Below are positions 937 to 15,262 of a stretch of 64,000 nucleotides of DNA, one piece after another. Below the pieces are notes generated by a model. That model was not told the DNA's origin. It did no database searches and saw only the letters and a list, made by a program, of their open reading frames with translations. Source of the DNA: Rhizobiales bacterium PAR1 (GTDB taxonomy: Bacteria > Pseudomonadota > Alphaproteobacteria > Rhizobiales > Beijerinckiaceae); NCBI GenBank assembly GCA_002256205.1, contig NKIW01000003.1:62001-126000 (forward strand), in the 5' to 3' direction. Made by a program: the position numbers and the translations under genes. How positions within the stretch are numbered: position 1 is the stretch's first letter; the number at the start of each line of letters is the position of its first letter.

Positions 937-956
937 GCCTGTTTTTGGATGTTTCG

Positions 957-984
957 AGGCCGCCCGCGAGGCGGCCTTTTTGTT
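957..984 (+). terminator. Terminator-like hairpin ahead of portal gene
   Basis: A perfect 8-bp stem, AGGCCGCC (957-964) with GGCGGCCT (970-977) and a 5-base loop, is followed by a run of T (977-981). It has the form of an intrinsic terminator but lies inside the GTA operon, about 40 bases before the portal start. It is preceded by GGATGTTTCG. Similar hairpins precede capsid and adaptor. Confidence 0.7.
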
Positions 985-1025
985 GGGCCAAGGTCTGGTC
1001 CCTAAACCTCGTCATGGAGAGACGC

Positions 1026-2234
1026 ATGGTCAATCTTCTCGAACGCCTCTTCGGGGGCGAGGCAAGCCGCACGAAAGCGGTGCGGCAGGCGCCGATGGTG
1101 GCCTTCCATCAACCCGGCTCCGGGTTCTTCTCGGACAGATCGGGGCCGGGGCTGGTGCATGCGGGTTTTCATCGCAACGCCATCGTCTACCGCTGCGTGA
1201 GGCTCATTTCCGAAGCCGCGGCGCAGATCGCCTGGACGGTGCTGATCAACGGGTCCGAACAGAAGGACCACCCGGTTGAGGCACTGCTGACACGCCCCAA
1301 TGCCCGCGAAAGCGGCACGGACATGCTCGAAGCACTCTACGGTCACCTCCTTGTTTCCGGGAATGCCTATTGCGAAGTGATCGCGGCCAGCGGCAAGCCC
1401 GCGGAACTCCATGTGCTGAGGCCGGATCGCGTCAGCCTCGTGCCGGGACCAGATGGCTGGCCGTTGGCCTATGACTATGCCGTGGGCACGGGGCTGACGC
1501 GGTTTCCGATTCCGGAGAACGGGCCGTCGCCCATCCTGCATCTCCGGCTTTTTGATCCCCTGAATGATCACTATGGCTTCGCGCCACTTTCGGCGGCGCA
1601 GGTGGCGCTCGAAATGCACGATGCCGCAAGCCGCTGGAACAAGGCGCTGCTTGATAATTCCGCGAGGCCCTCCGGCGCGTTGGTCTATGGCTCGACAGAT
1701 CAGATGAGCGAAGATCAGTTCGAACGGCTCAAGGGTGAACTCGAAAGTGCCTTTCAGGGTTCGACCAATGCCGGACGCCCGATCCTCCTCGAGGGCGGGC
1801 TCGATTGGAAACCGCTATCGCTCACGCCGAAGGATATGGATTTTCTCGAAGCGCGCGCCGGGGCTGCGCGGGAAATCGCGCTGGCCTTTGGCGTGCCGCC
1901 GCTGCTGCTCGGCTTTCCGGGGGACAATACCCACGCCAACTATGCCGAGGCGAACCGGGCTTTCTGGCGCTCGACGGTGTTGCCGCTCGTGCAGCGGACG
2001 CAAGGTGCGCTTGCACATTGGCTCCAGCCCTACTTCAGCGAAGACATTCGCTTCAAGCCGGATCTCGATGGCATCGAGGCTCTTTCCAGTGAACGCGAGG
2101 CGCTCTGGCGCCGGGTTACTGCCGCAACCTTCCTCACCGAAGAAGAGAAGCGTGAGGCGATTGGCTACGGCAAGCGGACAGCGCCGCTGAACCCGGCCAA
2201 GCCTGTCAAGCCCGTCCTGCCTGCCAAGCCGTGA
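1026..2234 (+). CDS. GTA/phage portal protein (HK97 type)
   Basis: A 402-residue HK97-family portal protein. It forms the dodecameric ring at one capsid vertex through which DNA enters and leaves, and to which the neck binds. The ATG at 1026 is chosen because GGAGAG lies about 6 bases upstream; the frame is open further upstream but that sequence does not look like a portal N-terminus. Family-like stretches include FHRNAIVYRCVRLISEAAA near the N-terminus and FGVPPLLLGFPGDNTHANY in the C-terminal half. It corresponds to RcGTA gene 3. The C-terminus is a short Pro/Lys/Ala tail (NPAKPVKPVLPAKP). Confidence 0.95.
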   Translation: MVNLLERLFGGEASRTKAVRQAPMVAFHQPGSGFFSDRSGPGLVHAGFHRNAIVYRCVRLISEAAAQIAWTVLINGSEQKDHPVEALLTRPNARESGTDMLEALYGHLLVSGNAYCEVIAASGKPAELHVLRPDRVSLVPGPDGWPLAYDYAVGTGLTRFPIPENGPSPILHLRLFDPLNDHYGFAPLSAAQVALEMHDAASRWNKALLDNSARPSGALVYGSTDQMSEDQFERLKGELESAFQGSTNAGRPILLEGGLDWKPLSLTPKDMDFLEARAGAAREIALAFGVPPLLLGFPGDNTHANYAEANRAFWRSTVLPLVQRTQGALAHWLQPYFSEDIRFKPDLDGIEALSSEREALWRRVTAATFLTEEEKREAIGYGKRTAPLNPAKPVKPVLPAKP

Positions 2235-2240
2235 TCCCGC

Positions 2241-2432
2241 ATGGGTTCGATCACGGAGTCGATCCTCACGCGGGGAGATCTCGCGCATCTCGCACTTTTT
2301 CTCTGGGCGAGCGGCGCCTCGGCGCTGCTCTACCAGGCCTTTCGTGAAATCACCGCTGCCAACCGGCGGTTCGATGCCTTCGTGCGTGAACTCGCGCGCT
2401 TCAACAACCGTCACGGAGAAACACCGCCATGA
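2241..2432 (+). CDS. Small GTA-associated membrane protein
   Basis: A 63-residue protein between portal and prohead protease, the place of small accessory genes such as RcGTA g3.5. It has one hydrophobic segment (about residues 14-33, LAHLALFLWASGASALLYQA) followed by a charged helical tail rich in Arg and Asn. It begins 6 bases after the portal stop and overlaps the next gene by 4 bases (ATGA), so translation is probably coupled. I do not recognise a characterised family. The position suggests a role in particle assembly or membrane association, but this is inference. Confidence 0.7.
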   Translation: MGSITESILTRGDLAHLALFLWASGASALLYQAFREITAANRRFDAFVRELARFNNRHGETPP

Positions 2433-2629
2433 ACCGCCTGCGCTTACCTCCGGCGCTGAGGAAGAAGGATGAACCCGCCGCGCCACGCGGGGTACGGGAT
2501 GTCTTCCAGCGCTTTTTCGATCTCATCGAGCGGCTCGAACGCCCGTTTCACCCCGGTGATAGCCGCCCTGCGCCGGAGGTGAAGGCGCGGATCACCCGTC
2601 TGGACGACAAGCCGCACCGCCCTTCCTGA
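2429..2629 (+). CDS. Small hypothetical GTA protein
   Basis: A 66-residue basic, mostly hydrophilic protein coupled to the preceding small gene by an ATGA overlap. The middle (about residues 20-38) is a predicted helix, VFQRFFDLIERLERPF, and the ends are Pro/Arg/Lys-rich. No cysteine pair or catalytic motif is visible. Its conserved-looking coupling between portal and protease genes supports a real gene. Its function is unknown to me; a scaffold or portal-associated role is possible but unsupported by the sequence alone. Confidence 0.65.
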   Translation: MNRLRLPPALRKKDEPAAPRGVRDVFQRFFDLIERLERPFHPGDSRPAPEVKARITRLDDKPHRPS

Positions 2630-2647
2630 CGGCGGTGCTGCCCGTTT

Positions 2648-2682
2648 CCATCTGATCCGAGGTTTCCCAAAATCCGAGGTTT
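2648..2682 (+). repeat. Short repeats in leader of prohead protease
   Basis: The leader contains two copies of ATCCGAGGTTT (2655-2665 and 2672-2682, 17 bases apart), ending a few bases before the protease ATG at 2686. The overlapping 12-mer CCATCTGATCCG (2648-2659) occurs again at 5483-5494 in the leader of the adaptor gene. This suggests a shared control element within the cluster. Confidence 0.5.
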
Positions 2683-2685
2683 TCC

Positions 2686-3246
2686 ATGACCATTGGTTCG
2701 ATTTCCGGCCGGCTTCCCTCCCCACTGGCCGGAATAGGCGTCCGCGCGCCTGCCCCCTCACTGTGTAGCGCGGACGCCACCTTCTCCACTGATCCGGTGC
2801 GCGGCGAATTCGAGGGCTATGCCTCGCTGTTCGGCGTGATGGATCTCGGCCGCGATGTCGTGATGCCCGGCGCCTTTCGGGATACGATCGAGCGGCGCGG
2901 CGCGCCGGGCGTGAAGCTTCTCTGGCAGCATGATCCGGGCCAGCCGCTTGGTGTCTGGACCTCCATCGAGGAGGATGGCCGGGGGCTTTATGTCCGCGGC
3001 GCGCTCGACCTTCAGCAGGGCAAATCCCGCGAGGCGCTAAGCCTGATGCAGAAGGGCGCGCTCGACGGATTGTCCATCGGCTATCGCACCGAGATTGAAC
3101 GCAAGGACCCTTCCACGGGTCTGCGCCGGCTTGAGCGGATCGACCTGTGGGAAATCTCGCTGGTGACTTTTCCGCTGCTGCCGCAGGCGCGGGTGCGCTC
3201 GGTCAAAGCCGCGCCGCCGCCGGGTCGGAACCCCTATTTCATGTGA
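2686..3246 (+). CDS. HK97-family prohead protease
   Basis: A 186-residue serine protease of peptidase family S78 (U35) that removes the N-terminal delta domain of the capsid protein during maturation. The catalytic His is H82 in LLWQHD and the catalytic Ser is S130 in LDGLSIGYR. The fold-typical stretch EGYASLFGVMDLGRDVVMPGAF (residues about 43-64) is present in full. The N-terminal 30 residues are variable and proline-rich. It corresponds to RcGTA gene 4 and sits just upstream of its substrate gene. Confidence 0.95.
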   Translation: MTIGSISGRLPSPLAGIGVRAPAPSLCSADATFSTDPVRGEFEGYASLFGVMDLGRDVVMPGAFRDTIERRGAPGVKLLWQHDPGQPLGVWTSIEEDGRGLYVRGALDLQQGKSREALSLMQKGALDGLSIGYRTEIERKDPSTGLRRLERIDLWEISLVTFPLLPQARVRSVKAAPPPGRNPYFM

Positions 3247-3326
3247 ACGGCCACCGATCCGATTTTCGCCAGCGATCGTGATCGCGGTGAGTTCAAGTCT
3301 ATCCGGCTCGCAAGGCCCGGATGTTC

Positions 3327-3348
3327 GCCGCCTTCGGGCGGCTTTTTT
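3327..3348 (+). terminator. Terminator-like hairpin ahead of capsid gene
   Basis: The stem GCCGCC (3327-3332) pairs with GGCGGC (3337-3342) across a very stable TTCG tetraloop and is followed by six T (3343-3348). It lies 21 bases before the capsid start. Like the hairpin before the portal gene it is preceded by GGATGTTCG. Either it attenuates readthrough or it marks a capsid-specific transcript end. Confidence 0.75.
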
Positions 3349-3369
3349 GCGTGAAAACAGAGGATACTG

Positions 3370-4602
3370 ATGATGGATCTCTCCAACAGCGGGCGCATGG
3401 CGCCCGAGACCAAGATTGATGACGCCCGCACGCATGAAGCGGCGGTGATGCAGACTTTCGAGGCGTTCAAGGCCGCAAATGACGAGCGTCTCGCCGAGAT
3501 CGAGCGCAAGCAGCGCGCCGATGTCCTGCTGGAAGAGAAGGTGGATCGCATCAACCGCGACATGGATCGGATGATCTCCAAGGCGGCCCGTCCGGCTCTT
3601 GGCGCCCCGGTGCGTCGCGACGAGGTGATTGCCATCGAGCACAAGGCGGCGTTCGAGTCCTATGCCCGTACGGGACAGGCCGATGCGATCCGCATGATCG
3701 AATCGAAGGCGCTGAACGGGGCCATCGCGCCGGATGGCGGCTACCTCCTGCCCCCGGATGCCGAAGCCTCCATCCTATCCCGCATGGCGGCGCTTTCGCC
3801 GATCCGTTCGGTGGCGATGGTGCGGACGCTTGCCAATTCGACCCTCAAGAAGGCCGTGTACCCGACAGGTTCGAATGGCGGCTGGTCGTCGCAGTCGACG
3901 GCCTCGAATACCGTGACGACGAACCAGTATTCCGAGCTGAGCTTCCCGACCATGGAGCTCTTCTCGCAGCCGGCGGCGACGCAGACCATGCTCGACGATG
4001 CGGCGGTGGATGTCGAATCCTGGATTTCGGATGAGATCGTCTACTCGTTTTCGGCGGCGGAAAGCACGGCCTTCATCAATGGTGACGGCATCAACAAGCC
4101 CAAAGGTCTCCTGAGTTACACCACGGTGGCCGATACCTCCTGGGCCTGGGGCAGCCTTGGAACTATCGCGACCGGCGTCTCCGCCGGTTTCTCCGCGACC
4201 AACCCGTCGGATATCCTGTTCGACTTCGCCCATGGCCTGAAAAGTGCCTACCGCCAGCATGGCACCTTTGTAATGAACCGGAAAACGCAAGGCGTGATCC
4301 GCAAGTTCAAGGATACGACCGGCAATTACATCTGGGCACCGCCGACCATGATCGGCGCCAAGGCAACCCTGATGAACTTCCCGGTCGTCGAAGCCGAGGA
4401 CATGCCGGATATCGCGGCAAATTCGCTCTCGGTGGCTTTCGGTGATTTCCGCCGCGGTTATCTCGTGATTGACCGCGTCGGCATCCGGGCGCTGCGCGAC
4501 CCGTATTCCGCCAAGCCCTATGTGCTGTTCTACACGACCAAGCGTGTCGGCGGCGGAGTGCAGGACTTCCAGGCGATCAAGCTATTGAAGTTCGGCGTTT
4601 AA
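3370..4602 (+). CDS. Major capsid protein (HK97 fold)
   Basis: A 410-residue capsid subunit. Residues about 15-75 form a charged coiled-coil delta domain that the upstream protease would remove; the mature shell domain starts near ALNGAIAPDGGYLLPP. The C-terminal half has typical HK97 features, including the FINGDGINKPKGLLSY loop. It corresponds to RcGTA gene 5. The start is ATG 3370 (ATG 3373 is possible), with AGAGG upstream. Its TAA stop at 4600-4602 overlaps the stop of the convergent serine protease gene through the shared palindrome TTAA. Confidence 0.95.
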   Translation: MMDLSNSGRMAPETKIDDARTHEAAVMQTFEAFKAANDERLAEIERKQRADVLLEEKVDRINRDMDRMISKAARPALGAPVRRDEVIAIEHKAAFESYARTGQADAIRMIESKALNGAIAPDGGYLLPPDAEASILSRMAALSPIRSVAMVRTLANSTLKKAVYPTGSNGGWSSQSTASNTVTTNQYSELSFPTMELFSQPAATQTMLDDAAVDVESWISDEIVYSFSAAESTAFINGDGINKPKGLLSYTTVADTSWAWGSLGTIATGVSAGFSATNPSDILFDFAHGLKSAYRQHGTFVMNRKTQGVIRKFKDTTGNYIWAPPTMIGAKATLMNFPVVEAEDMPDIAANSLSVAFGDFRRGYLVIDRVGIRALRDPYSAKPYVLFYTTKRVGGGVQDFQAIKLLKFGV

Positions 4603-5405
4603 TCGCTCGATGAAATTGGGACAGCGCCTGCCACCCGGCTGCGGCTGCCCCAACGGATCAGCACACTATCGATCCATCCGCGTTGCGGGGCGATGCGCAC
4701 GGCCTGCGCTGTCGTCCCGCAATGCCGAGCGGTGCCGAATTTCTCTTTTCCGTAGATGACGCCGACCATCACGGAGCCATCGAAAACCGGGCCACCGGAA
4801 TCGCCGGTGCAGATGGCGAAATCGCCGAGGTCGGCATCAACGCGATAGCCGATCCGCATGAAGCGTGGGTAGATCTTCGGCAAGACGCTGGCCGAAGCGC
4901 TCCGCAACGTGCCGGAACTCGCTTCCTCGCGCTCGCCGATCAGACCGAAGCCCGCAATGGTTCTCCGGTCGCCAATGGCATGGGGATGCCCGTCCGCCTC
5001 AAGTTGAACCGGCACGAAACGATCCGGCAGGTTGGTCTCGAGCTTCAGCAGCGCCATGTCGATGGAGACATTGGACGCGCGGGAATAACCCGGATTGACC
5101 GCTTTGGTGGCGACACGCTGCACAATATGGGAGCCGTGCTCCTCGTAGGCGATGATCACCTGCTTCGCCTGCGCGACACAATGCGCGGCGGTGAGGATGA
5201 TATCCGGCGCGATGACGGTGCCGGTGCATGTGCCAAAACCGCGCGCGGCCGCCGATTCGACAATGACGACATGCGGCTTGAGGCCGGAATCAGCGCTGGT
5301 CGCCCTTCCGCCTAGGGAAAAGGCAGGAAAACTGGCGAAAGAACCGGTCAGAACGCCGGTGGCGAGGACGAGCGCAATGCGCCGGAAGCAAAAATCGTAG
5401 GTCAC
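4599..5405 (-). CDS. Secreted trypsin-like serine protease (family S1) inside the GTA cluster
   Basis: A 268-residue protein with a GTG start, an N-terminal signal peptide (hydrophobic about residues 10-30) and a complete chymotrypsin-type triad: H75 in TAAHC, D116 in SIDMALLKL and S203 in GDSGGP. Paired cysteines (C60/C76 and C199/C229) fit the usual disulfides, so the enzyme is expected to act outside the cytoplasm. It lies opposite in direction between capsid and adaptor, so transcription reaching the adaptor genes crosses it in antisense. The role is unknown. Possibilities are release or processing of particles, or an unrelated gene inserted at a tolerated site. The family call is secure; the GTA link is only positional. 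Confidence 0.9.
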   Translation of the reverse strand: MTYDFCFRRIALVLATGVLTGSFASFPAFSLGGRATSADSGLKPHVVIVESAAARGFGTCTGTVIAPDIILTAAHCVAQAKQVIIAYEEHGSHIVQRVATKAVNPGYSRASNVSIDMALLKLETNLPDRFVPVQLEADGHPHAIGDRRTIAGFGLIGEREEASSGTLRSASASVLPKIYPRFMRIGYRVDADLGDFAICTGDSGGPVFDGSVMVGVIYGKEKFGTARHCGTTAQAVRIAPQRGWIDSVLIRWGSRSRVAGAVPISSSD

Positions 5406-5436
5406 GGACGGACCATTACACCGGTCACGGGACCGC

Positions 5437-5494
5437 GCAAGTCATCTGTCTACCCCAGCAAGTCATCTGTCTACCCGCCAAGCCATCTGATCCG
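5437..5494. repeat. 21-bp-period tandem repeat between protease and adaptor genes
   Basis: Two identical 19-base units GCAAGTCATCTGTCTACCC lie at 5437-5455 and 5458-5476, 21 bases apart, followed by a degraded third copy (about 5479-5494). The spacing equals two helical turns, which fits a protein-binding array. The third copy contains the 12-mer also seen upstream of the prohead protease gene. Confidence 0.7.
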
Positions 5495-5539
5495 CCAGGC
5501 TCCACCCATGCTGCATCGGGGGGGGCTTTGGACAGATCT

Positions 5540-5560
5540 GCCGCCCGAGCGGCCCTTTTT
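5540..5560 (+). terminator. Terminator-like hairpin ahead of adaptor gene
   Basis: The stem GCCGC (5540-5544) pairs with GCGGC (5549-5553), loop CCGA, followed by CC and five T (5556-5560). It lies 23 bases before the adaptor ATG. It is weaker than the hairpins before portal and capsid but has the same layout. Confidence 0.55.
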
Positions 5561-5583
5561 CAAAACAGAGATTGGATAGCCCC

Positions 5584-6147
5584 ATGATCCCCGTGCTGCT
5601 GGACGGCCCGACCGTCGAACCGATTTCCCTTGCCGAAGCCAAACTGTGGTTGCGCCTTGATACAACCGACGAGGATGATCTCGTGCGCGCGCTGATTGTT
5701 GCTGCGCGGCTGATGGTCGAGGCCGAAATCGGGCAGGTGCTGATCGGCCAGAACTGGCGCCTCGTCGGGGATGCCTGGCCGGCTGGAGAACTGATCCCGG
5801 TGCGGATCGGCCGCATCCGCAGTGTTTCCGGAGGCCGGGTGTATTCGGTGGACGGTGTCGCGACAGCCATTGCTGCAAACCGATTCACGGTGTTTGCCAA
5901 CAGCGAGCCGCCGGCGATCCTCGCGCTCGATCGGCTGATTCCAGGGCGGGCTTATGCCGGCATCGAGATCGATATCCGCCTCGGCTTTGGCGAGGCCGCG
6001 AGCGATGTGCCGGAGACGATCCGGCTCGCGATCCGTCGCCTTGTGACGCTTTGGTACGAAAATCGTGGCGATACGCATGATCCGCAGGCGGGAATACCGC
6101 CGCAGATCCGCGCCTTGCTGCGTCCCTTCCGTCGTATCCGGCTGTGA
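5584..6147 (+). CDS. Head-tail connector/adaptor protein (gp6-like)
   Basis: A 187-residue protein of the phage phiE125 gp8 / gp6-like connector family, equivalent to RcGTA gene 6, the adaptor ring below the portal. The N-terminus (VEPISLAEAKLWLRLD) and the helical stretch DDLVRALIVAARLMVEAEIG are characteristic, as is the C-terminal ETIRLAIRRLVTLWYENR. ATG 5584 is chosen over an in-frame TTG at 5572. It starts the second run of closely packed GTA genes (gp6 to gp15) after the interruption by the antisense protease gene. Confidence 0.9.
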   Translation: MIPVLLDGPTVEPISLAEAKLWLRLDTTDEDDLVRALIVAARLMVEAEIGQVLIGQNWRLVGDAWPAGELIPVRIGRIRSVSGGRVYSVDGVATAIAANRFTVFANSEPPAILALDRLIPGRAYAGIEIDIRLGFGEAASDVPETIRLAIRRLVTLWYENRGDTHDPQAGIPPQIRALLRPFRRIRL

Positions 6148-6154
6148 GGGTGCC

Positions 6155-6514
6155 ATGACAATAACAGGACGCATGGCAACGGCAGAACGACATCCCACCA
6201 TTGAAACCCGCCGCTCCCGCGTCTCGCTGGAGGCGCCGCAGGAAACCGCCAACGCGCTCGGCGGCGCAGCGATTCAGTATCAACCACTCGTGACGCTTTG
6301 GGCACGGCTCGAAGCGCGCGGTGGCGCCGAGAAGCTCCGGGGCGGACGGCTGGAAGGCACCAGCGATACCCGCATTACCCTGCGTTGGCGCGGCGGAGTG
6401 GATACCCGGCACCGGCTTCGCCTCGGCAGTCGGATTTTCGCGATCCGCGCCGCCTTCGATCCTGATGGACGCAAGCGCGATCTCGTCTGCCTTTGCGAGG
6501 AGATTTCGGCATGA
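6155..6514 (+). CDS. Head closure/stopper protein (head-tail adaptor, gp7)
   Basis: A 119-residue protein of the SPP1 gp16 / HK97 gp10-like head-tail adaptor family, matching RcGTA gene 7 by order and size. The conserved core is QYQPLVTLWARLEARGG followed by a beta-rich half with TRITLRWRGGVDTRHRLRLG. It would plug the neck after DNA packaging. ATG 6155 has GAGGG a few bases upstream. Its stop overlaps the next ATG (ATGA). Confidence 0.85.
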   Translation: MTITGRMATAERHPTIETRRSRVSLEAPQETANALGGAAIQYQPLVTLWARLEARGGAEKLRGGRLEGTSDTRITLRWRGGVDTRHRLRLGSRIFAIRAAFDPDGRKRDLVCLCEEISA

Positions 6515-6924
6515 GCCTCACCGCGCACCCCATTGCCGCATTGAAGGCGGCGCTTCGGACAAGGCTTCTGGCGGATGTCGATCTCGCAGCACTGATTGGA
6601 GCGTCGATCTACGACGCCCCGCCGCGCGGCGCCGCCCCGCCCTACCTCGTGCTTGGCGAGGCAGATGCGCAAGAGAGCGGCACGAGCGAGCGCGACGGTC
6701 TCAAGATCGAGCTGGAGTTGGTCTCGGTGACTTCCGAACGCGGCACCTCGGCCGCCCTGGCAATGGCTTCGGCCGTCGCCGCAGCAATCGCCGCGCCGCT
6801 GCCGAGCGCTGATGGCCAACGCCTGATCGTGCTCGGTCTACGCCAGATGTCGACCCGCTACGACGCAACGAATGAACTGGCGCGTGTCACCCAGCGGCTC
6901 AGCGCCTTCACCGAACCCCTTTAA
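6511..6924 (+). CDS. Tail terminator protein (DUF3168, gp8)
   Basis: A 137-residue DUF3168 protein, equivalent to RcGTA gene 8, forming the ring that caps the tail tube and joins it to the neck. Family-like features are HPIAALKAALRTRLLADVDLA at the N-terminus, the PPYLVLGEA strand, and the C-terminal RYDATNELARVTQRLSAF. Translation is probably coupled to the stopper gene by the 4-base overlap. Confidence 0.88.
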   Translation: MSLTAHPIAALKAALRTRLLADVDLAALIGASIYDAPPRGAAPPYLVLGEADAQESGTSERDGLKIELELVSVTSERGTSAALAMASAVAAAIAAPLPSADGQRLIVLGLRQMSTRYDATNELARVTQRLSAFTEPL

Positions 6925-6939
6925 TCTCTGGAGAGCTCC

Positions 6940-7350
6940 ATGGCAGCACAACGCGGCAAGGATATTCTGCTCAAGGTCGATGATGGCACGACGCAATTCG
7001 TGACCGTGGCGGGCCTGCGCACCAAGCGTTTCGCGCTCAACGCCGAAACAGTGGATATTACCCACGCCGAATCCGCCGGGCGCTGGCGCGAATTGCTGGA
7101 TGGTGCTGGCGTCAAACGCGCCAGCGTGTCGGGCAACGGCATTTTCAAGGACGCGACCTCCGATGTGCTGGCAAGGCAGATCTTCTTCGACGGGCTGATC
7201 CGGAACTGGCAGGTGATCCTGCCGGATTTCGGCACGATCACCGGTGCCTTCCAGATTACCAGCCTTGATTACAAGGGCGAGCATGCTGGTGAGATGACCT
7301 TCGATCTCACGCTCGAGAGCGCCGGCGCGCTCAGCTTCACCGCGCTGTGA
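6940..7350 (+). CDS. Major tail tube protein (TP901-1 family, gp9)
   Basis: A 136-residue tail tube protein, equivalent to RcGTA gene 9. It starts with the typical AAQRGKDILLKVDDG and contains the family-like KRFALNAETVDITHAESAGRW. The C-terminus (GEMTFDLTLESAGALSFTAL) is the usual beta strand ending. GGAGAG lies about 8 bases before the ATG. Hexamers of this protein stack to form the short flexible tail. Confidence 0.93.
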   Translation: MAAQRGKDILLKVDDGTTQFVTVAGLRTKRFALNAETVDITHAESAGRWRELLDGAGVKRASVSGNGIFKDATSDVLARQIFFDGLIRNWQVILPDFGTITGAFQITSLDYKGEHAGEMTFDLTLESAGALSFTAL

Positions 7351-7357
7351 GGCCGCG

Positions 7358-7687
7358 ATGAGTAATCCCTTGAGGGCGGAGGCGAGCGTCGAACTCGCAG
7401 GGCAGCGCTATGTTTTGCGGTTGACGCTTCAGGCGTTGGCGGAAATCGAGGCCGCTTTTGCGGTCAAGGGGCTCGATGCCCTCGGCTCCCGGCTATCGGG
7501 CGGGAACCTCGGCGCGCAGGATTTGCTGGCGTTGCTCGGTGCGCTGATCCGGGGCGGCGGCGGGAGGATCGCCAATGCTGATCTTGCGAGCCGGATCGAG
7601 GCACGCGATCTTCCGATTCTAATCGAGGCCATCGGGGCAGTATTTACTACCAGTTTTGGCGAAAGCGAGGCAGCGGACCCTCGCTAG
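7358..7687 (+). CDS. Tail assembly chaperone (GTA gp10, TAC_11 family)
   Basis: A 109-residue protein of the GTA gp10 family, with the characteristic N-terminal half (EASVELAGQRYVLRLTLQALAEIEAAF). It is the first of two chaperone genes that lie between tail tube and tape measure, as in RcGTA. By analogy with lambda G/GT, these proteins coat the tape measure during tail assembly. The gp10.1 frame is -1 relative to this one, and both are open together from 7582 to 7687. Confidence 0.85.
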   Translation: MSNPLRAEASVELAGQRYVLRLTLQALAEIEAAFAVKGLDALGSRLSGGNLGAQDLLALLGALIRGGGGRIANADLASRIEARDLPILIEAIGAVFTTSFGESEAADPR

Positions 7688-7740
7688 CCGCAGCGCGCCC
7701 GAAGCCTGCTGTCAGCAGTCCTGGCCTGCCCTGGGCAGAG

Positions 7741-7926
7741 ATGATGGCATTTGGCCTCGGTGTTCTGCGGCTTTCATCGATCGATTTCTGGCACCTCACC
7801 ATTCCCGAATTCCGGGCCGCCGCAAGGGGCGTGCGTGGTGAATTCGACCTCGCCGAGCCGCTGCCACGCGGCGCTTTCGCGGCGCTGATGCAGCGCTTTC
7901 CTGACCAGACACCTCAAGGAGCCTGA
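7741..7926 (+). CDS. Tail assembly chaperone (GTA gp10.1, rcc01693/TAC_6 family)
   Basis: The ATG-started product has 61 residues (MMAFGLGVLRL...), with a core typical of the rcc01693 family (FGLGVLRLSSIDFWHLTIPE). The residues just before the ATG read LPWAE, and a Trp at that position looks like part of the family N-terminus, so the true start may be upstream. No ATG, GTG or TTG exists in this frame between the upstream stop (7579) and 7741; only CTG 7726 or ATT 7642 are available. Start at CTG or fusion to gp10 by a -1 frameshift are alternatives. I saw no canonical slippery heptamer in the overlap. Confidence 0.75.
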   Translation: MMAFGLGVLRLSSIDFWHLTIPEFRAAARGVRGEFDLAEPLPRGAFAALMQRFPDQTPQGA

Positions 7927-7929
7927 TCC

Positions 7930-8427
7930 ATGGCAACCGATCTCTTCGGCGGCACCGATACCGTCGGCACACTGACCGGCCAGATGGCACGGCTCGATAC
8001 GCTCACCAACCAGTTTGGTCGCTCGCTCTCGAAAGCGCTCTCGACCGGCATCATTCAGGGCAAGAGTTTTGACGACATCCTGCGTTCGCTCGGTCAGAGA
8101 TTGATCGATATCTCGCTTCGGGCGGCGTTCAAACCACTCGAAACCGGCATCAACAGCCTGCTCGGCGGGCTCACCAACAGTCTGAGCGGAGTGCTCTCGG
8201 GCGGGCTGTCCGGTGGTGGCTCGCTGGTTTCCGGGCTGACGGGAGAAGGGGCGAGCGGTGGCTTTGCGGGGTTCACCAGCAGTTTTGCCAATGCCGCGGC
8301 ACCGAAGGCCGGCGTGACCGTCAACATGGCGGTTTCAACGCCGGACGCCGCGAGTTTTTCCCGCTCCGAAGCGCAGATCAGCGCCGCACTGGCGCGGGCC
8401 GTGTCGCGCGGCCAGCGCAGTCTTTGA
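7930..8427 (+). CDS. Short tape measure protein (GTA gp11)
   Basis: A 165-residue tape measure protein matching RcGTA gene 11. The N-terminal half is helical (TGQMARLDTLTNQFGRSLSKAL); the middle (about residues 75-120) is a Gly/Ser/Leu-rich hydrophobic stretch; the C-terminus (SRSEAQISAALARAVSRGQRSL) is a conserved-looking helix. The small size predicts a very short tail, as in GTAs and unlike siphophages, whose tape measures usually exceed 600 residues. GGAG precedes the ATG. Confidence 0.9.
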   Translation: MATDLFGGTDTVGTLTGQMARLDTLTNQFGRSLSKALSTGIIQGKSFDDILRSLGQRLIDISLRAAFKPLETGINSLLGGLTNSLSGVLSGGLSGGGSLVSGLTGEGASGGFAGFTSSFANAAAPKAGVTVNMAVSTPDAASFSRSEAQISAALARAVSRGQRSL

Positions 8428-8439
8428 CAGGAGAAGCCG

Positions 8440-9087
8440 ATGCCGATCACCGGATTTCATGATGTGCGCTTTCCGCTGGACATTGCGCTCGGTGCGCGCG
8501 GAGGACCGGAGCGTCAGACCGATATTGTCACGACGGCATCCGGGCGTGAGGAGCGCAACGCGCGCTGGGCGCATTCACGCCGCAAGTATGACGCGGGCTA
8601 TGGTGTTAGAACGATCACGCGGCTTGCCGAGGTGATTGCGTTCTTCGAGGAGCGCCGTGGGCGACTTTACGGTTTTCGCTTTCGCGACCGGCTCGACTGG
8701 ACCTCGGCTGTCGGCAATGCCACCCCGACCGCGCTCGACCAGCAGATCGGTACCGGAACCGGAACGCTTGCAAGTTTCAACCTGACAAAGACTTACGGCA
8801 ACGCCTTTGCGCCTTACGCCCGCCCGATCTCCAAACCTGTCGCAGGCTCCATCAAGCTGGCGGTGAATGGCGTAGAGAAGGTGATCGGGACGGATTTCAC
8901 GGTGGATACAGCGACCGGAACCATCACGTTTCTCGCCGGGAAAATTCCCGGCAGCGGGGCGGCGGTGACGGCGGGCTTCCTGTTCGATGTGCCGGTGCGT
9001 TTCGATACTGATTACCTCGAATTCGACCTCTCCGCCTTCGAGGCCGGGGCCATACCGGCGATTCCGCTGGTCGAGCTGAGGAGTTAA
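8440..9087 (+). CDS. Distal tail protein (DUF2460, gp12)
   Basis: A 215-residue DUF2460 protein, equivalent to RcGTA gene 12, which forms the ring joining the tail tube to the baseplate hub. Typical segments are FPLDIALGARGGPERQTDIV near the N-terminus, EERNARWAHSRRKYDAGYGV, FFEERRGRLYGFRFRD and the C-terminal PVRFDTDYLEFDLSAFEAG. GGAGAAG precedes the ATG, and the next gene starts 3 bases after the stop. Confidence 0.93.
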   Translation: MPITGFHDVRFPLDIALGARGGPERQTDIVTTASGREERNARWAHSRRKYDAGYGVRTITRLAEVIAFFEERRGRLYGFRFRDRLDWTSAVGNATPTALDQQIGTGTGTLASFNLTKTYGNAFAPYARPISKPVAGSIKLAVNGVEKVIGTDFTVDTATGTITFLAGKIPGSGAAVTAGFLFDVPVRFDTDYLEFDLSAFEAGAIPAIPLVELRS

Positions 9088-9090
9088 GCC

Positions 9091-9975
9091 ATGCGCAAAA
9101 TCCCTGCCGCGCTCGCCGGTGCGCTTCAAACCGGCGCGACGACGCTCTGCCGCTGCTGGCGGCTCACCCGCCAGGATGGCGTTGTGCTCGGTATCACCGA
9201 TCATGACATCGATCTCGTGATCGAGTGCACGGCCTTCGAGGCCAATGGTGGCTTCGAGGCGAGCGCTCGCGAGGCGGAAGCGGGTCTGGCGACGCTGGGT
9301 GGCGAGGTCAACGGCGCCCTGACATCGGACCGCATCCGCGTCGAGGATATCGAGGCGGGGCTTTATGACGGCGCGGAATTGCGCTGCTATCTTGTCAACT
9401 GGCAGGCGCCGGCGCTCAATTTCCTGACCGATGTATCGACGCTCGGCGAAATCCGTCGCATCGACGGGCGCTTCGTTGCGGAGACCCGCAACGCCTTCCA
9501 TACCTATGATCAGGAGCGCGGGCGGCTTTTTACCGCGAGTTGCAGCGCGGAACTTGGTGATAACCGCTGCGGCGTGGTGCTCGCCGCACCACCGTTTCGC
9601 ATGACCGGGACGGTTGCGAGTACAGATGGTCGGCACAAATTGACCGCGACGGCCGTGGCCAATTCGGTGACCGGGCTATTCACGCGCGGAACCGTTACTT
9701 TCACGTCCGGCGCGAATGCGGGGTTTTCCACCATCATCAAGGATCACCGGGCAGGGGGAGAACTCGTCCTTTGGCAGGGGTTGGTGCGCGAGCTTGCGCC
9801 CGGCGATGGTTTCTCCGTCACGGCAGGCTGCGACAAGCGCTTTGCCACTTGCCGCGACCGCTTCGCCAATGCGGCGAATTTTCGCGGTTTCCCGTTCATG
9901 CCGGCACCCGAATTCGTGATGACCTACGCCCGACCGGGCGAGGGGCATCACCAGGGTCGTCCGCTGGTTCGATAG
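9091..9975 (+). CDS. Baseplate hub protein (DUF2163/BR0599, gp13)
   Basis: A 294-residue protein with an N-terminal DUF2163 domain and a C-terminal phage BR0599-type region, equivalent to RcGTA gene 13 (hub). Cysteines cluster in the C-terminal half (SCSAELGDNRCG and GCDKRFATCRDRF). In the RcGTA hub, as I recall, conserved cysteines bind an iron-sulfur cluster, so the same is likely here. The typical end FRGFPFMPAPEFVMTYARPG is present. Confidence 0.93.
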   Translation: MRKIPAALAGALQTGATTLCRCWRLTRQDGVVLGITDHDIDLVIECTAFEANGGFEASAREAEAGLATLGGEVNGALTSDRIRVEDIEAGLYDGAELRCYLVNWQAPALNFLTDVSTLGEIRRIDGRFVAETRNAFHTYDQERGRLFTASCSAELGDNRCGVVLAAPPFRMTGTVASTDGRHKLTATAVANSVTGLFTRGTVTFTSGANAGFSTIIKDHRAGGELVLWQGLVRELAPGDGFSVTAGCDKRFATCRDRFANAANFRGFPFMPAPEFVMTYARPGEGHHQGRPLVR

Positions 9976-9985
9976 GAGAGAGGAC

Positions 9986-10441
9986 ATGGCAGAAATCGAT
10001 ATGCCGTCCTCCGGTCGCCCGGAGGTCGTGGCTGCCGCACGCGCCTGGGTCGGCACGCCCTATCGGCATCAGGCATCGTTGCGCGGGGTCGGCTGTGATT
10101 GCCTCGGGTTGCTGCGCGGCGTCTGGCGCGACCTTTTCGGCGATGAACCGGAGACGCCGGAGCCCTATTCACCCGCCTGGGCGGAACTTGCCGAGGGTGA
10201 CCCCCTGCTGGCCGCGGCGATGCGCCATCTCGTGCATTCCACGGATGGCATCATCCGGCCCGGCTCGGTGCTGGTGTTCCGCTGGCGTGCCCATGTCGCG
10301 GCCAAGCATTGCGGCATCGCGACGGACGATACGCATTTCCTGCATGCCCATGACGGCGCCTCGGTCGCGGAAGTCGCGATTGTGTCGGGCTGGCGACGTC
10401 GGATCGTGGGCATTTTTGATTTTCCGGATCGGATGAGCTGA
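9986..10441 (+). CDS. NlpC/P60-family cell wall peptidase of the tail (gp14)
   Basis: A 151-residue NlpC/P60 peptidase, equivalent to RcGTA gene 14, thought to degrade peptidoglycan of the recipient during DNA entry. The catalytic Cys lies in RGVGCDCLGLLRG (about residue 39) and the His in the VAAKHCGIA strand (about residue 109), followed by FLHAHDG. A strong AGGAGAGAGG precedes the ATG. The last base of its stop is the first base of the next gene's ATG, so translation is coupled. Confidence 0.92.
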   Translation: MAEIDMPSSGRPEVVAAARAWVGTPYRHQASLRGVGCDCLGLLRGVWRDLFGDEPETPEPYSPAWAELAEGDPLLAAAMRHLVHSTDGIIRPGSVLVFRWRAHVAAKHCGIATDDTHFLHAHDGASVAEVAIVSGWRRRIVGIFDFPDRMS

Positions 10442-13400
10442 TGGCGACCATTGCACTCCAGATTGCCGGCACGGCGCTCGGCACCTTTCTTGGCGGCCCG
10501 ATTGGTGGGGCGCTCGGCTCCGCCCTGGGGGGCACGCTTGGCGCGATGGTCGACCGCTCACTGCTCGGCGGCGGCAAGGCGATCGAAGGGCCGCGCCTCT
10601 CCAATATCAACGGGATCACCGCGACAGAAGGGGCGCCGATCCCGCGTGCCTATGGCCGCGTGCGGCTTGGCGGACAGGTGATCTGGGCCACGGAATTCGA
10701 AGAGCAAAGGGTTGTCGAAAAGAACGGGACCAGCGGCGGCAAGTCCACCGGCGCAACGGCGACCAAAACCGTCCGCTACACCTATTTTGCCAATGTCGCG
10801 ATCGGCTTATGCGAAGGGCCGATCCATTTCGTGCGCCGCATCTGGGCCGATGGCGAGGAACTCGATCTCGCAGCGCTGACCTTCCGCACCTATACCGGCA
10901 GCGAGACGCAGGAAGCTGATCCGTTGATCGTCGCCAAGCAGGAGACGAGCGCTGTGCCGGCGTTTCGTGGGTTGGCTTACGTTGTATTCGAGCGCTTGCC
11001 GCTTGCGAACTACGGAAATCGCTTGCCACAGTTCAGCTTCGAGGTGGTGCGCGCCGCGCCCGGACTGCCGGAGCAGCTTCGGGCTATCAATCTCATGCCT
11101 GGCTCCACTGAATTCGGCTATGCCACCACCGAAGTTCGCGAAGACTTCGGGCTGGGCTCCTCGCAGCCGATCAACCGGTCGCAATGGACCCATGCCACCG
11201 ATTGGGAAGCGGGGCTCGATGCCTTGATGGCGGTTGCACCCAATCTCGAACGTGCGACGCTGATCAGTGCCTGGTTCGGCGACGATTTGCGGGCGGCATC
11301 CTGCACCTTCCGGCCCAAGGTCGAGAAGAATGCGAAGGCGACAACCGGCCAGCAATGGCAGGCGGCGGGCTTGACCCGTGCGAGTGCTCAAGCGGTCTCT
11401 GAAAGCGACGGACGCCCGAGCTTTGGCGGTTCGCCCTCTGACCAGAGTGTGGTCGAAGCGATCCGCGATCTCAAGGCGCGCGGGCTGAAGGTTGCGCTCC
11501 ACCCTTTCGTGTTGATGGATATTCCGGCGAGCAATGTCAGGCCTGACCCCTGGACCGGCGCCGCGTCGCAGCCTGCCTATCCCTGGCGGGGGCGGATCAC
11601 CTGTGACCCCGCGCCGGGACGCGCTGGAAGTCCTGAAAGCTCCACGGCGGTTTCCGCTCAGATCAATACTTTGATGGGAACCGCGACGGCTGCGCATTTT
11701 GCTCTTACGGGCGATACAGTTGTCTATTCGGGGCCGAACGAATGGTCGTTCCGGCGAATGGTGCTGCACCATGCCATGCTCGCCAAGGCGGCGGGCGGAG
11801 TGGAGACCTTCATCCTCTCCTCTGAATTGATCGGCTTGACGCGCTTGTCATCCGGCAACGGGAATTACCCCTTCGTGCAGGCGATGATCGGGCTGCTGGC
11901 GAACCTGCGCAGCATTCTCGGACCCTCGACCGTGATCACCTATGCGGCGGACTGGAGCGAATATGGCGCGGATACCCGCAATGGCGGGCAGGAGGTGCGC
12001 TTCCCGCTCGATCCGCTTTGGGCACATGCCGAGATCGGAGCGATCGGGATCGATTTTTACCCGCCACTCACGGATTGGCGCGATGGGCGCGACCATCTCG
12101 ATGCGGCGGAGGCGAAGAGCGCCGTTGATGCGGGGTACATTGCGGATCGCATCACGGCCGGCGAAGCCTTCGATTGGTATTACGCGAGCGAGGCTGGCCG
12201 GAAGGCGCAGCAGCGTCTGTCGATCAGCGATGGCGCTTATGGCAAGCCGTGGGTGTTCCGCCAGAAAGACCTGAAGAACTGGTGGAGCCAGCCGCATGTC
12301 GAGCGCGTCGGTGGGGTGGAGTTGGCGCAGCCGACGGCCTTTGTGCCGGGCGCCAAGCCGATTTACCTCACCGAGATCGGCTGCCCGGCTGTCGACAAGG
12401 GCGCAAACCAACCAAACGTCTTTCCCGATCCGAAGTCGACCGAAAATGCGTTGCCGTATTTTTCGAATGGCAGCCGCGACGATCTCGTCCAATGCCGCGT
12501 GCTGGAAGCCTATCTCCGGCGCTTTGATCCGGCTGTGTCGGGATTTGATCCTGCGGATAATCCGGCAGCGAGCCTCTATGCCGGTCGTATGATCGATCCC
12601 TCGTTCATCGCGCCATGGGCCTATGATGTCCGGCCTTATCCGGCTTTTCCTTTGCAGCGCAGCCTCTGGGCAGATGGGACGAATTGGCTGCACGGGCATT
12701 GGCTAAATGGCCGGCTTGAGGCCCTGCCCGTCGATGCGCTGCTCACGATGATCGCCGAGGATATGGAGGTTCAGGCACCCGCTTTCGAGCACGCCGACGG
12801 TTTTGTCGATGGCTATGTAATCGATCGTCCGATGAGTGCACGAGCGGCGGTTGAGCCTGTCGCGGCCACTTTTGGCCTTGTTGCAACGACGACCGGCGAT
12901 GTGATCCGGTTCGGCGGGAGGCCGGTGACTGTCGATGTCACGCTCATTGAGGAAGATCTCGTTCCGGCCAAGGATGGCAAGCTGGTCGAGATCACCCGCA
13001 AGCAGGAGAGCGAACTGCCCCGGCAATTGAGCTTCGGGTACATCGATGGCGAGAACGGCTTTCGGCAGGCGGTGGCTTTAGCGGAAACCTCGGTGGTGGA
13101 ATCTAGCCGCGAGCAAACGCTTTCGGCGGCGCTTCATTTGCCGCGCGGGTTGGCGCGGCGACTGGCTGAAACCCGACTTCAGGATATCTGGAGCGGACGC
13201 GAGACCTTTTCCTTCCGCCTGCGCCCAAACCTTCAGACGCTGGAGCCGGGCGATCTTGTCTCGCTGCCCACCGCTTCCGGCGCTCGGCTGGTGCAGATCA
13301 CGCGGATCACCGATGGGGCCTATCGCGAGTGCGAGGCGCGGGCCTATGATCCGCAATTCGCGGAAACCAGCCCAACGCTTGACGAACTGCCTCCCGAAAC

Positions 13401-14346
13401 GGGTATTCCTGCTCTGCCGGGGGCGGCCTTCGTCCGGTTGATGGAACTGCCGCTGGATCGGGGAGGAGGACTGTTATCGGCGGTGGTGCGGGCCGATCCC
13501 TGGCGCGGGCCGTATTCCGTTCTGCTCAACGCCGGTGGAATACCGACCTTGGCAGGCACAGTGCCGACAACAGCACTGGTCGGAAAGACACTGACGCCGC
13601 TTTCCGCGGGACCGCTCTGGCGCTGGGATGAGGCGGCGAGCCTTGAAGTTCAGGTTGAAGGCGGAGCGCTTGGAAGCCTTGGTGCCGAAGCAACGCTTGC
13701 GGGCGGAAATGCGCTCGCCCTGATCGCGCCTTCGGGCGAGATCGAGGTGATCCTGTTCCGGCGTGCGGAGCTTGTGGGTGAGAAGCGTTACCGCGTTTCG
13801 GGTCTGTTGCGCGGAATAGGCGGATCGGAAGCCGCAGCGACGCGCGTTCTCGCACCCGGCGCAGATGTCATCGTGCTCGACGATGCCGTGACGGATATTG
13901 GCATGGGCAGCGAGGCCATTGGCGCGGCCAAGAACCATATCATCCTCCCGGCGGGCCGCGATCTTGGCGATCCGACAGCGGTGAATGCGAGTGCGACGCC
14001 CTCAGGTGTCGCTCTGATGCCGCTTGCACCGGTACACCCCAAGGCGCGGCGCGAGGCGGGCGGAGTTCGCTTTTCCTTCATCCGGCGCACCCGAAAGGAT
14101 GGCGACTCCTTCGATCTCTTCGAGGTCCCCTTGGGGGAGGAAGTCGAGGAATACCGCTTCGAGGTGATGAACGGGGCCGCCGTGGTTCGAACGGTTGTCC
14201 TCTCGACTCCAGACTATCTCTACCCGACAGCGAGCGAGTTGGCGGATTTTGGTGCCGGCCAATCGAACATCGCCGTTCGCGTTCGGCAGGTGAGCCGAAC
14301 CGTGGGGCCCGGTGCCGCGCTCATCGCGACCATTCCGGCTTTGTAA
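10441..14346 (+). CDS. GTA megatron / host-specificity tail protein (gp15)
   Basis: A 1301-residue protein equivalent to RcGTA gene 15, the largest tail protein, forming the baseplate megatron. The N-terminus has a glycine-rich hydrophobic segment (about residues 13-40) followed by GAPIPRAYGRVRLGGQVIW. The centre (about residues 235-670) is the GTA TIM-barrel-like domain, with VETFILSSELIGLT and PIYLTEIGCPAVDKGANQP. The next part matches phage tail protein 3 (EEDLVPAKDGKLVEITRKQE...LPRQLSFGYID), and the C-terminal third is beta-rich and probably contacts the recipient surface. It is intact and of normal length, which argues that the GTA is functional. Confidence 0.95.
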   Translation: MATIALQIAGTALGTFLGGPIGGALGSALGGTLGAMVDRSLLGGGKAIEGPRLSNINGITATEGAPIPRAYGRVRLGGQVIWATEFEEQRVVEKNGTSGGKSTGATATKTVRYTYFANVAIGLCEGPIHFVRRIWADGEELDLAALTFRTYTGSETQEADPLIVAKQETSAVPAFRGLAYVVFERLPLANYGNRLPQFSFEVVRAAPGLPEQLRAINLMPGSTEFGYATTEVREDFGLGSSQPINRSQWTHATDWEAGLDALMAVAPNLERATLISAWFGDDLRAASCTFRPKVEKNAKATTGQQWQAAGLTRASAQAVSESDGRPSFGGSPSDQSVVEAIRDLKARGLKVALHPFVLMDIPASNVRPDPWTGAASQPAYPWRGRITCDPAPGRAGSPESSTAVSAQINTLMGTATAAHFALTGDTVVYSGPNEWSFRRMVLHHAMLAKAAGGVETFILSSELIGLTRLSSGNGNYPFVQAMIGLLANLRSILGPSTVITYAADWSEYGADTRNGGQEVRFPLDPLWAHAEIGAIGIDFYPPLTDWRDGRDHLDAAEAKSAVDAGYIADRITAGEAFDWYYASEAGRKAQQRLSISDGAYGKPWVFRQKDLKNWWSQPHVERVGGVELAQPTAFVPGAKPIYLTEIGCPAVDKGANQPNVFPDPKSTENALPYFSNGSRDDLVQCRVLEAYLRRFDPAVSGFDPADNPAASLYAGRMIDPSFIAPWAYDVRPYPAFPLQRSLWADGTNWLHGHWLNGRLEALPVDALLTMIAEDMEVQAPAFEHADGFVDGYVIDRPMSARAAVEPVAATFGLVATTTGDVIRFGGRPVTVDVTLIEEDLVPAKDGKLVEITRKQESELPRQLSFGYIDGENGFRQAVALAETSVVESSREQTLSAALHLPRGLARRLAETRLQDIWSGRETFSFRLRPNLQTLEPGDLVSLPTASGARLVQITRITDGAYRECEARAYDPQFAETSPTLDELPPETGIPALPGAAFVRLMELPLDRGGGLLSAVVRADPWRGPYSVLLNAGGIPTLAGTVPTTALVGKTLTPLSAGPLWRWDEAASLEVQVEGGALGSLGAEATLAGGNALALIAPSGEIEVILFRRAELVGEKRYRVSGLLRGIGGSEAAATRVLAPGADVIVLDDAVTDIGMGSEAIGAAKNHIILPAGRDLGDPTAVNASATPSGVALMPLAPVHPKARREAGGVRFSFIRRTRKDGDSFDLFEVPLGEEVEEYRFEVMNGAAVVRTVVLSTPDYLYPTASELADFGAGQSNIAVRVRQVSRTVGPGAALIATIPAL

Positions 14347-14371
14347 ATCGACCGACAATCAGGAGACCTTG

Positions 14372-15262
14372 ATGGCAAGCGAAAGCTTCGAGCCAGCGCT
14401 GACCTGCGTCCTTGCGCAGGAGGGTGGCTACTCCGACCACCCCGCTGATCCCGGCGGTGCGACCATGATGGGCATCACGCAAGGAACGCTCGCGGAATGG
14501 CGTGGGAATGCGGTGACGAAAGCCGATGTCCGGGCGTTGAGCCGGACGGAAGTCGCCGAGATCTATCGTAAACGCTACTGGGATTCCGTGCATGGTGATC
14601 AGTTGCCGGCCGGACTCGATCTGGCCGTGTTTGATTTTGCGGTCAACTCCGGCGTCTCGCGGGCGGTCCGGAGCCTCCAACGCGTGCTCGGGGTTGCCGC
14701 GGATGGACGCGTCGGGCCGGAGACGCTTCAAGCGGTGGCCATCTGCGATCCGGGCGAGATGGTCACGCGATTGTCTGCGCTGCGGCTCGCGTTTCTTGAA
14801 GCGCTTTCGACCTTCCCGGTCTTCGGTCGCGGCTGGACGCGGCGCGTACGCGAGGTCGAGGCCGAGGCCCGCAAGCTGGTGTCAGCTTTATCCGTCACCC
14901 CCGCTCGACTTCCCTCTACCACAAAGGAGCTTGCCCCCATGGACATCACCAAAGGAATTCTGACCAGCCGCACCGTTTGGGCAAATGCGATTGGCATAGG
15001 CGCGCTCGCGCTCTCCTGGCTTGGCTTTGATACAAGCGGTCTCGACAAGGGCGCGCTGACCGATAGCCTGTTACAGGCTCTCGCCGGGGTCAGTTTTGTC
15101 GCTTCGACGATGTTCCGCATTCTCGCGACGAAACGTCTGGATTCTCGCGACGAAACGTCTGGCCTGATCGGAGAGCCCCGTTTGACCGTTTTGTATGCAA
15201 GCGGGGTGGATCACGGATTTTCTGTCGAAACGCCGGCGAGTTGGTATATGTGTGCGCGATAG
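14372..15262 (+). CDS. Endolysin (GH108-type muramidase) fused to holin-like membrane domain
   Basis: A 296-residue protein; ATG 14372 has AGGAG upstream. Residues 1 to about 100 are a glycosyl hydrolase 108 domain with the catalytic Glu at E17 in AQEGGYSDHPADPGG, followed by a peptidoglycan-binding region (ADGRVGPETLQAV) to about residue 172. Residues 190-256 form a holin-like domain, MDITKGILTSRTVWANAIGIG through FRILATKRL, with two membrane segments. Such domains are usually a separate small gene, and the linker (about residues 174-189) reads like translated intergenic DNA with an internal ribosome-binding site. The last 40 residues arise from a frame-shifting 22-bp duplication. The gene probably serves release of GTA particles. 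Confidence 0.85.
   Translation: MASESFEPALTCVLAQEGGYSDHPADPGGATMMGITQGTLAEWRGNAVTKADVRALSRTEVAEIYRKRYWDSVHGDQLPAGLDLAVFDFAVNSGVSRAVRSLQRVLGVAADGRVGPETLQAVAICDPGEMVTRLSALRLAFLEALSTFPVFGRGWTRRVREVEAEARKLVSALSVTPARLPSTTKELAPMDITKGILTSRTVWANAIGIGALALSWLGFDTSGLDKGALTDSLLQALAGVSFVASTMFRILATKRLDSRDETSGLIGEPRLTVLYASGVDHGFSVETPASWYMCAR
14923..14941 (+). promoter_or_regulatory. Internal ribosome-binding site and start for holin-like domain
   Basis: AAAGGAG (14923-14929) lies 9 bases before an in-frame ATG (14939-14941) that begins the holin-like part of the endolysin gene. The match to the 16S anti-Shine-Dalgarno sequence is better than that of many real starts in the window. Separate translation from this ATG would give the holin alone, as in relatives where the two genes are distinct. 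Confidence 0.65.
15119..15162 (+). repeat. Perfect 22-bp tandem duplication in the holin-like domain
   Basis: Two identical adjacent 22-base units (15119-15140 and 15141-15162), each starting ATTCTCGCGA, lie at the end of the holin-like domain. Twenty-two is not a multiple of three. With one copy the frame would read ATKRLA and stop at the TGA now at 15165-15167; with two copies the frame continues 40 residues past ATKRL to 15262. Confidence 0.95.

Follow-up and report, generated by a model that had tools for sequence, protein, structure and literature searches.

A fused muramidase and holin-like gene with a conserved candidate internal start in gene transfer agent clusters of Hyphomicrobiales

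The 64,000-nt stretch of Rhizobiales bacterium PAR1 analyzed here (the window) carries a single open reading frame (ORF) that is predicted to encode a GH108 muramidase running in frame into a two-helix, holin-like membrane domain, with a second in-frame start codon and its own Shine-Dalgarno (SD) sequence where the membrane domain begins. We consider it likely, at roughly three chances in four, that the ORF serves a chromosomal RcGTA-like gene transfer agent (GTA) as its lysis gene, and that one frame with two starts provides both a tethered muramidase–hairpin and a free hairpin that co-assemble at a lesion. The dual-start arrangement is apparently conserved and recurrent across Hyphomicrobiales, with a single frame making both products, and comparison among relatives shows selection both on the in-frame fusion and on the site of internal initiation, as read from patterns of sequence change.

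Results and discussion

The lysis gene and its GTA cluster

Features of the window on which the analysis draws are as follows.

130–10441, + strand: remaining RcGTA-like cluster, comprising terminase, portal, prohead protease, capsid, connector, tail tube, DUF2460 and NlpC/P60 genes (Pfam, ORFs)
10441–14346, + strand: GTA g15 homologue, directly upstream of the lysis gene (GTA_TIM 3.5e-126, Rcc01698_C 9e-25)
14361–14365, + strand: AGGAG, SD of the long product, which starts at 14372 (SD energy -7.4 kcal/mol)
14372–15262, + strand: fused endolysin–membrane-domain ORF, 296 aa (single copy in the genome)
14405–14653, + strand: GH108 catalytic domain, residues 12–94, with E17 of the EGG motif (Pfam PF05838, 5e-31)
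14660–14845, + strand: PG_binding_3 domain, residues 97–158 (Pfam PF09374, 7e-9)
14888–14938, + strand: linker, variable, G-poor and of low confidence in the structural model (fused relatives, pLDDT)
14923–14929, + strand: internal SD AAAGGAG, 9 nt 5' of the ATG at 14939 (-8.4 kcal/mol)
14939–14941, + strand: internal in-frame ATG (M190), putative start of a free holin-like protein (relatives)
14939–15139, + strand: two-helix membrane domain, conserved part, 67 aa, of the 'SRTVWAN' type (AlphaFold helices)
15119–15140, + strand: 22-bp tandem duplication, unit 1 (sequence)
15141–15162, + strand: 22-bp tandem duplication, unit 2, 100% identical, shifting the frame (sequence)
15140–15259, + strand: 40-residue out-of-frame tail common to both products (not in any relative; pLDDT)
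15165–15167, + strand: TGA matching the end of the relatives' domain, now out of frame (sequence)

The RcGTA-like core genes (terminase, portal, protease, capsid, tail genes and a g15 gene with GTA_TIM) lie in homologous order, and by this content the cluster is a predicted RcGTA-like gene transfer agent. Genes for a response regulator and a sensor kinase, with families assigned by reading the sequence, lie 3' of the lysis gene. Judged by its named relatives, the host genome is Rhabdaerophilum-like (GTDB places it in Beijerinckiaceae).

A gene for a trypsin-like protease (4599–5405, - strand; PF00089, 7e-24) lies antisense within the GTA cluster, between the capsid and connector genes, and has a homologue in 17 of 17 members of the genus, mostly about 9–10 kb from the lysis gene. 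Adjoining it at 5433–5489 is a 21-bp tandem repeat of 2.7 copies, nearly two of them perfect, which is another short exact duplication in this GTA cluster. One genome of the same genus lacks GH108 but still encodes the final ~21 residues of the membrane domain, some 150 bp away from its trypsin-like gene (G002:C19:62500-66500); in that genome most of the GTA has apparently been deleted and the protease spared.

Within the lysis gene, the Glyco_hydro_108 and PG_binding_3 matches together span residues 12–158, E17 of the EGG motif is invariant in 40 relatives, and matches to relatives in the PDB reach E-values down to 1.6e-71. With a GH108 catalytic domain that includes the EGG-motif glutamate, the ORF is a predicted GH108 muramidase gene. 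Against NCBIfam NF040573 (holin-associated N-acetylmuramidase) it scores 81 bits, under the 240-bit cut-off. AlphaFold models the GH108 domain with confidence and the linker with little (pLDDT below 50 over residues 185–191), and places two helices after it at residues 200–216 and 226–262. The ORF, Pfam and AlphaFold thus bear out the first-pass annotation where it described a GH108-type endolysin continuing in frame into a two-helix membrane domain, and the AAAGGAG that it placed 9 bases ahead of the internal ATG is indeed there.

No family in Pfam or NCBIfam matched the membrane domain, and its hydropathy is moderate, with Kyte-Doolittle peaks of 1.40 and 1.59 that fall below 1.6 and are borderline for a holin. 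In the PHROG holin families its relatives find weak matches (1e-4, 1e-3), including that of a stand-alone GTA homologue to phrog_34682 at 1.4e-4. As a 67-aa domain with two helices that adjoins both the lysin and g15, it has the attributes of a holin in the sense of a short protein with at least one transmembrane helix in a lysis cassette. Size, hairpin, position and the weak matches of relatives thus suggest that the domain is holin-like. Mean charge is -1.85 in the loop and +2.6 in the C-terminal tail, and because of these charges the positive-inside rule would give the hairpin an N-in/C-in topology; the lysin would therefore be cytoplasmic and wait on that face of the membrane.

The fusion is maintained in frame

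The loci were drawn from 61 relatives that were searched, from a scan with one genome per species covering 84,980 species, and from 397 genomes searched for the family. We classified 73 loci with both domains, the window included (46 fused and 27 split in the SD counts), and placed 69 loci on a tree. All 36 non-Microvirga GH108 loci in the tree are fused and split genes are confined to Microvirga, within which a clade of 8 is fused again, such that the fused or split state requires two changes. Fused is apparently both the common and the ancestral state in this sample. The first-pass annotation described the membrane protein as a separate small gene in related loci. This holds for some lineages only: the domain has a gene and an SD to itself in most Microvirga, in Salinarimonas and in one Methylocystis metagenome-assembled genome (MAG), where g15 directly precedes it. 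That the fusion is an assembly artefact or a one-off event is rejected, given that it is shared by the genus and by several further lineages.

Linkers of fused relatives measure 54–135 nt (60–135 nt outside Microvirga). Outside Microvirga the tree requires at least 22 changes of linker length, with all lengths divisible by 3; in split Microvirga, it requires at least 12 length changes, and the frame class changes at least 7 times. In the linkers of fused loci 0 of 1162 in-frame codons are stops, vs 39 of 2234 codons in the other two frames. Because all lengths are multiples of 3 and no in-frame stops occur, we conclude that selection preserves the frame through the linker outside Microvirga. 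In a further Hyphomicrobiales MAG (locus of 4271 bp), the GH108 lysin is split over two frames, with the SD and membrane domain still intact.

The internal start site is under selection

On the window alone the internal SD is unremarkable, as 4.9% of + strand ATGs score as well or better; it is raised above chance by its conservation in relatives. Of 40 relatives at least 90% have M190, although the linker around it varies, and most relatives without it have GTG or a nearby ATG instead. An SD motif occurs 4–17 nt before the internal start in 37 of 46 fused and 21 of 27 split loci, whereas two windows just upstream of the SD position contain one in 0 and 2 of the 46 fused loci, which argues that SD and start are maintained rather than left over. 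Across the fused loci (n=46) the median anti-SD energy is -8.25 kcal/mol for the internal SD, compared with -6.15 kcal/mol at the start of the lysin itself and -4.7 kcal/mol for in-frame ATGs inside the lysins (p=4e-11, a value that ignores the relatedness of the loci). The internal SD is also 1.6 kcal/mol stronger than in synonymous shuffles (p=3e-8, again ignoring relatedness). Linker G content is 0.19 vs 0.34 in the lysin, and pairing is lower at the internal start site than in lysin sequence (0.48 vs 0.62).

The codon phase of the SD varies among lineages (it is translated as KE, QGG or QE), indicating selection at the level of the DNA; conservation of KE residues for protein reasons is unlikely, given these phases and an SD beyond synonymous expectation. 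The first-pass annotation regarded the SD as retained from a separate holin gene. A relic of recent fusion is rejected, however, since the linkers have fully diverged while the SD persists, and selection is the better account. The same annotation held that relatives all fused and lacking an internal SD would count against a dual start. Outside Microvirga every GH108 relative in the tree is indeed fused, but the SD is present in most of them and a start codon in nearly all. With SD, start and frame kept in relatives, comparison supports the dual-start lysis cassette that it proposed, in which initiation would occur at 14939. An in-frame internal start with its own ribosome-binding site and a shared stop also characterizes two-polypeptide endolysin genes, in which the short product binds the cell wall; here it would be a membrane domain.

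A tandem duplication in the PAR1 copy

With one 22-bp unit the ORF would end in ATKRLA-stop as in relatives; with two, it continues for 40 residues past the last conserved leucine, and both products therefore lose the conserved KRL-stop end and gain the 40-residue tail. Neither duplication nor tail is seen in any relative, and the tail is disordered in the model (pLDDT 32–36 over its last 30 residues). We rejected 296 aa as the normal length of the protein, relatives stopping within a few residues of a KRL-like motif. The ORF and fusion described in the first-pass annotation thus stand, while the duplication was overlooked there and the last 40 residues fall outside the membrane domain. The frameshift may impair this copy.

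The membrane domain in other contexts

Five MAGs encode, after g15, an in-frame fusion of this membrane domain to a Glyco_hydro_19 plus PG_binding_1 lysin unrelated to GH108, and an internal SD is present in these fusions too. Because stand-alone and GH19-fused versions both occur, we regard the hairpin with its own start as, on sequence comparison, the constant module and the enzyme as exchangeable. In IMG/VR, 7 contigs carry the membrane domain. Among phage records, there was no near match to it apart from a sewage sequence labelled 'Bacteriophage sp. 103231' (MW091529.1), which looks like a GTA cluster; there, a large 'glycoside hydrolase' gene is followed by a stand-alone homologue of the domain.

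Among 90 GH108 loci sampled across Hyphomicrobiales, two other membrane types were found repeatedly, type B ('GYKTYIVAA') and type C ('KWWGQSLTIWG'). At its start the membrane domain has an in-frame ATG or GTG, with an SD of at least -6 kcal/mol in strength, in 31 of 33 loci of these types, and g15 precedes in 26 of 33, compared with 3 of 39 loci encoding other long-tailed GH108 proteins, mostly single-TM, which served as a rough contrast. Nearly all strong matches to type C are inside long open frames containing GH108, and 14 of 16 strong matches to type B are fused. Types A and C may be distantly related (hhalign probability 56%), and no relationship was seen when types A and B were compared.

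Proposed mechanism and alternative explanations

In the mechanism we favor, initiation at 14372 would give the holin-like two-helix hairpin with a GH108 muramidase attached to it by a flexible linker, and initiation at 14939, where a G-poor leader with weak pairing provides a separate SD, would give the hairpin alone. With the hairpin N-in/C-in, the lysin of the tethered form would wait at the cytoplasmic face; free hairpins would form a membrane lesion, and the tethered form would join it through the same hairpin, placing the muramidase there. We infer the use of the start at 14939, the topology, the co-assembly and the role of each product. A more tentative extension, for which the odds are well short of even, is that Hyphomicrobiales GTAs repeatedly evolved a lysis strategy specific to GTAs, with one gene for a tethered lysin-holin and a free holin, the ratio of starts serving as a lysis clock in which the tethered form would delay the lesion and then deliver the enzyme at its rim.

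It could instead be that only the fused protein matters, as a self-sufficient endolysin with a C-terminal transmembrane domain (TMD) and an incidental internal ATG and SD. Enc34 ORF39 and M4Lys have just such an N-terminal catalytic domain and C-terminal TMD and act without holin (PMC7143992, PMC8943055), and the frame is strictly kept in the GH108 fusion family. Because M4Lys lyses E. coli without a holin (PMC7143992), a free holin need not be required. However, SD and start persist in fully diverged linkers, in varied codon phases and beyond synonymous expectation, they are kept in stand-alone homologues, and when we scored the M4Lys sequence for an internal SD before its TMD we found none, with candidate starts at -3.2 or weaker, all of which makes this explanation unlikely. 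Less probable still is the converse, that two ordinary genes were joined by loss of a stop codon and that the fusion is neutral, only free holin and lysin (or a processed fusion) being of consequence: stand-alone homologues exist, and the separate genes of most Microvirga together with the re-fused 8-member clade indicate that both states are viable there, but neutrality does not predict at least 22 frame-preserving changes of linker length with no stop outside Microvirga.

Two further explanations are compatible with the dual-start mechanism. One would refine it by making the long form mainly an antiholin-like inhibitor, as S107 is to S105 in lambda, with the lysin acting only after triggering. 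The hairpin is common to both products and in dual-start holins the longer-start product is the antiholin (PMC9636201), but the extension here is a whole conserved enzyme with an invariant E17 rather than a short charged stretch, and we regard this role as possible but doubtful. The other, whose chances we put only somewhat below even, is that the cassette is decaying in this genome, the 22-bp duplication (or an assembly error) spoiling both products. The duplication is a perfect tandem one, its disordered tail occurs in no relative, and sister genome G002 has lost the GTA. On the other hand, both helices are intact, those GTA genes in the window that were checked against Pfam fit their families, and holin C-termini can tolerate changes.

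Relation to known lysis systems

C-terminal-TMD endolysins are known from Enc34 (ORF39), M4Lys (Chivirus group) and LysAP of phage AP1 (PMC8943055, PMC7143992, PMC8879335). Like the PAR1 gene, these combine an N-terminal catalytic domain, a linker and a C-terminal TMD (of two helices in Enc34) in one protein with no signal peptide; they differ in their catalytic families (PHA02564, GH24), in having a separate upstream holin gene and in belonging to phages, with no GTAs among them. The two-polypeptide endolysins CTP1L, phi2638A and others share with the PAR1 gene two in-frame starts in one gene, a shared stop and a C-terminal second product (PMC9430671, PMC4777826, PMC12203907), which in those Gram-positive systems is the cell-wall-binding part instead of a membrane hairpin; a survey of such endolysins excluded Gram-negative phages on the grounds that internal starts were unlikely there (PMC9430671). 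In lambda (S105/S107) and phage 21 (S68/S71), two starts in the one frame of a single lysis gene also yield two membrane proteins (PMC9636201), although the starts are 2–3 residues apart there and 189 residues apart here, with the enzyme included.

As in RcGTA (rcc00555/rcc00556) and Caulobacter (LypABC), the system would serve release of an alphaproteobacterial GTA by host lysis. RcGTA has a putative lysozyme and a putative holin as separate genes (PMC3423380) and Caulobacter has no holin or endolysin and lyses by LypABC (PMC13236601), whereas the window has one fused gene after g15. Each element is known, be it C-terminal-TMD endolysins, in-frame internal endolysin starts or dual-start holins, and their combination was not found in the open-licence literature: in place of a native endolysin–holin fusion with an internal holin start, we found there only engineered fusions and C-terminal-TMD endolysins.

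How GTA producers lyse is known in only a few species, which do so by quite different means (Rhodobacter vs Caulobacter), and a conserved dual-start lysin–holin gene right after g15 suggests an answer for much of Hyphomicrobiales. It would also bring Gram-negative hosts, in which such genes had been considered unlikely, into the range of two-polypeptide endolysins, the second product being a membrane hairpin. Microvirga, in which the gene was apparently split and then fused again, offers a natural experiment.
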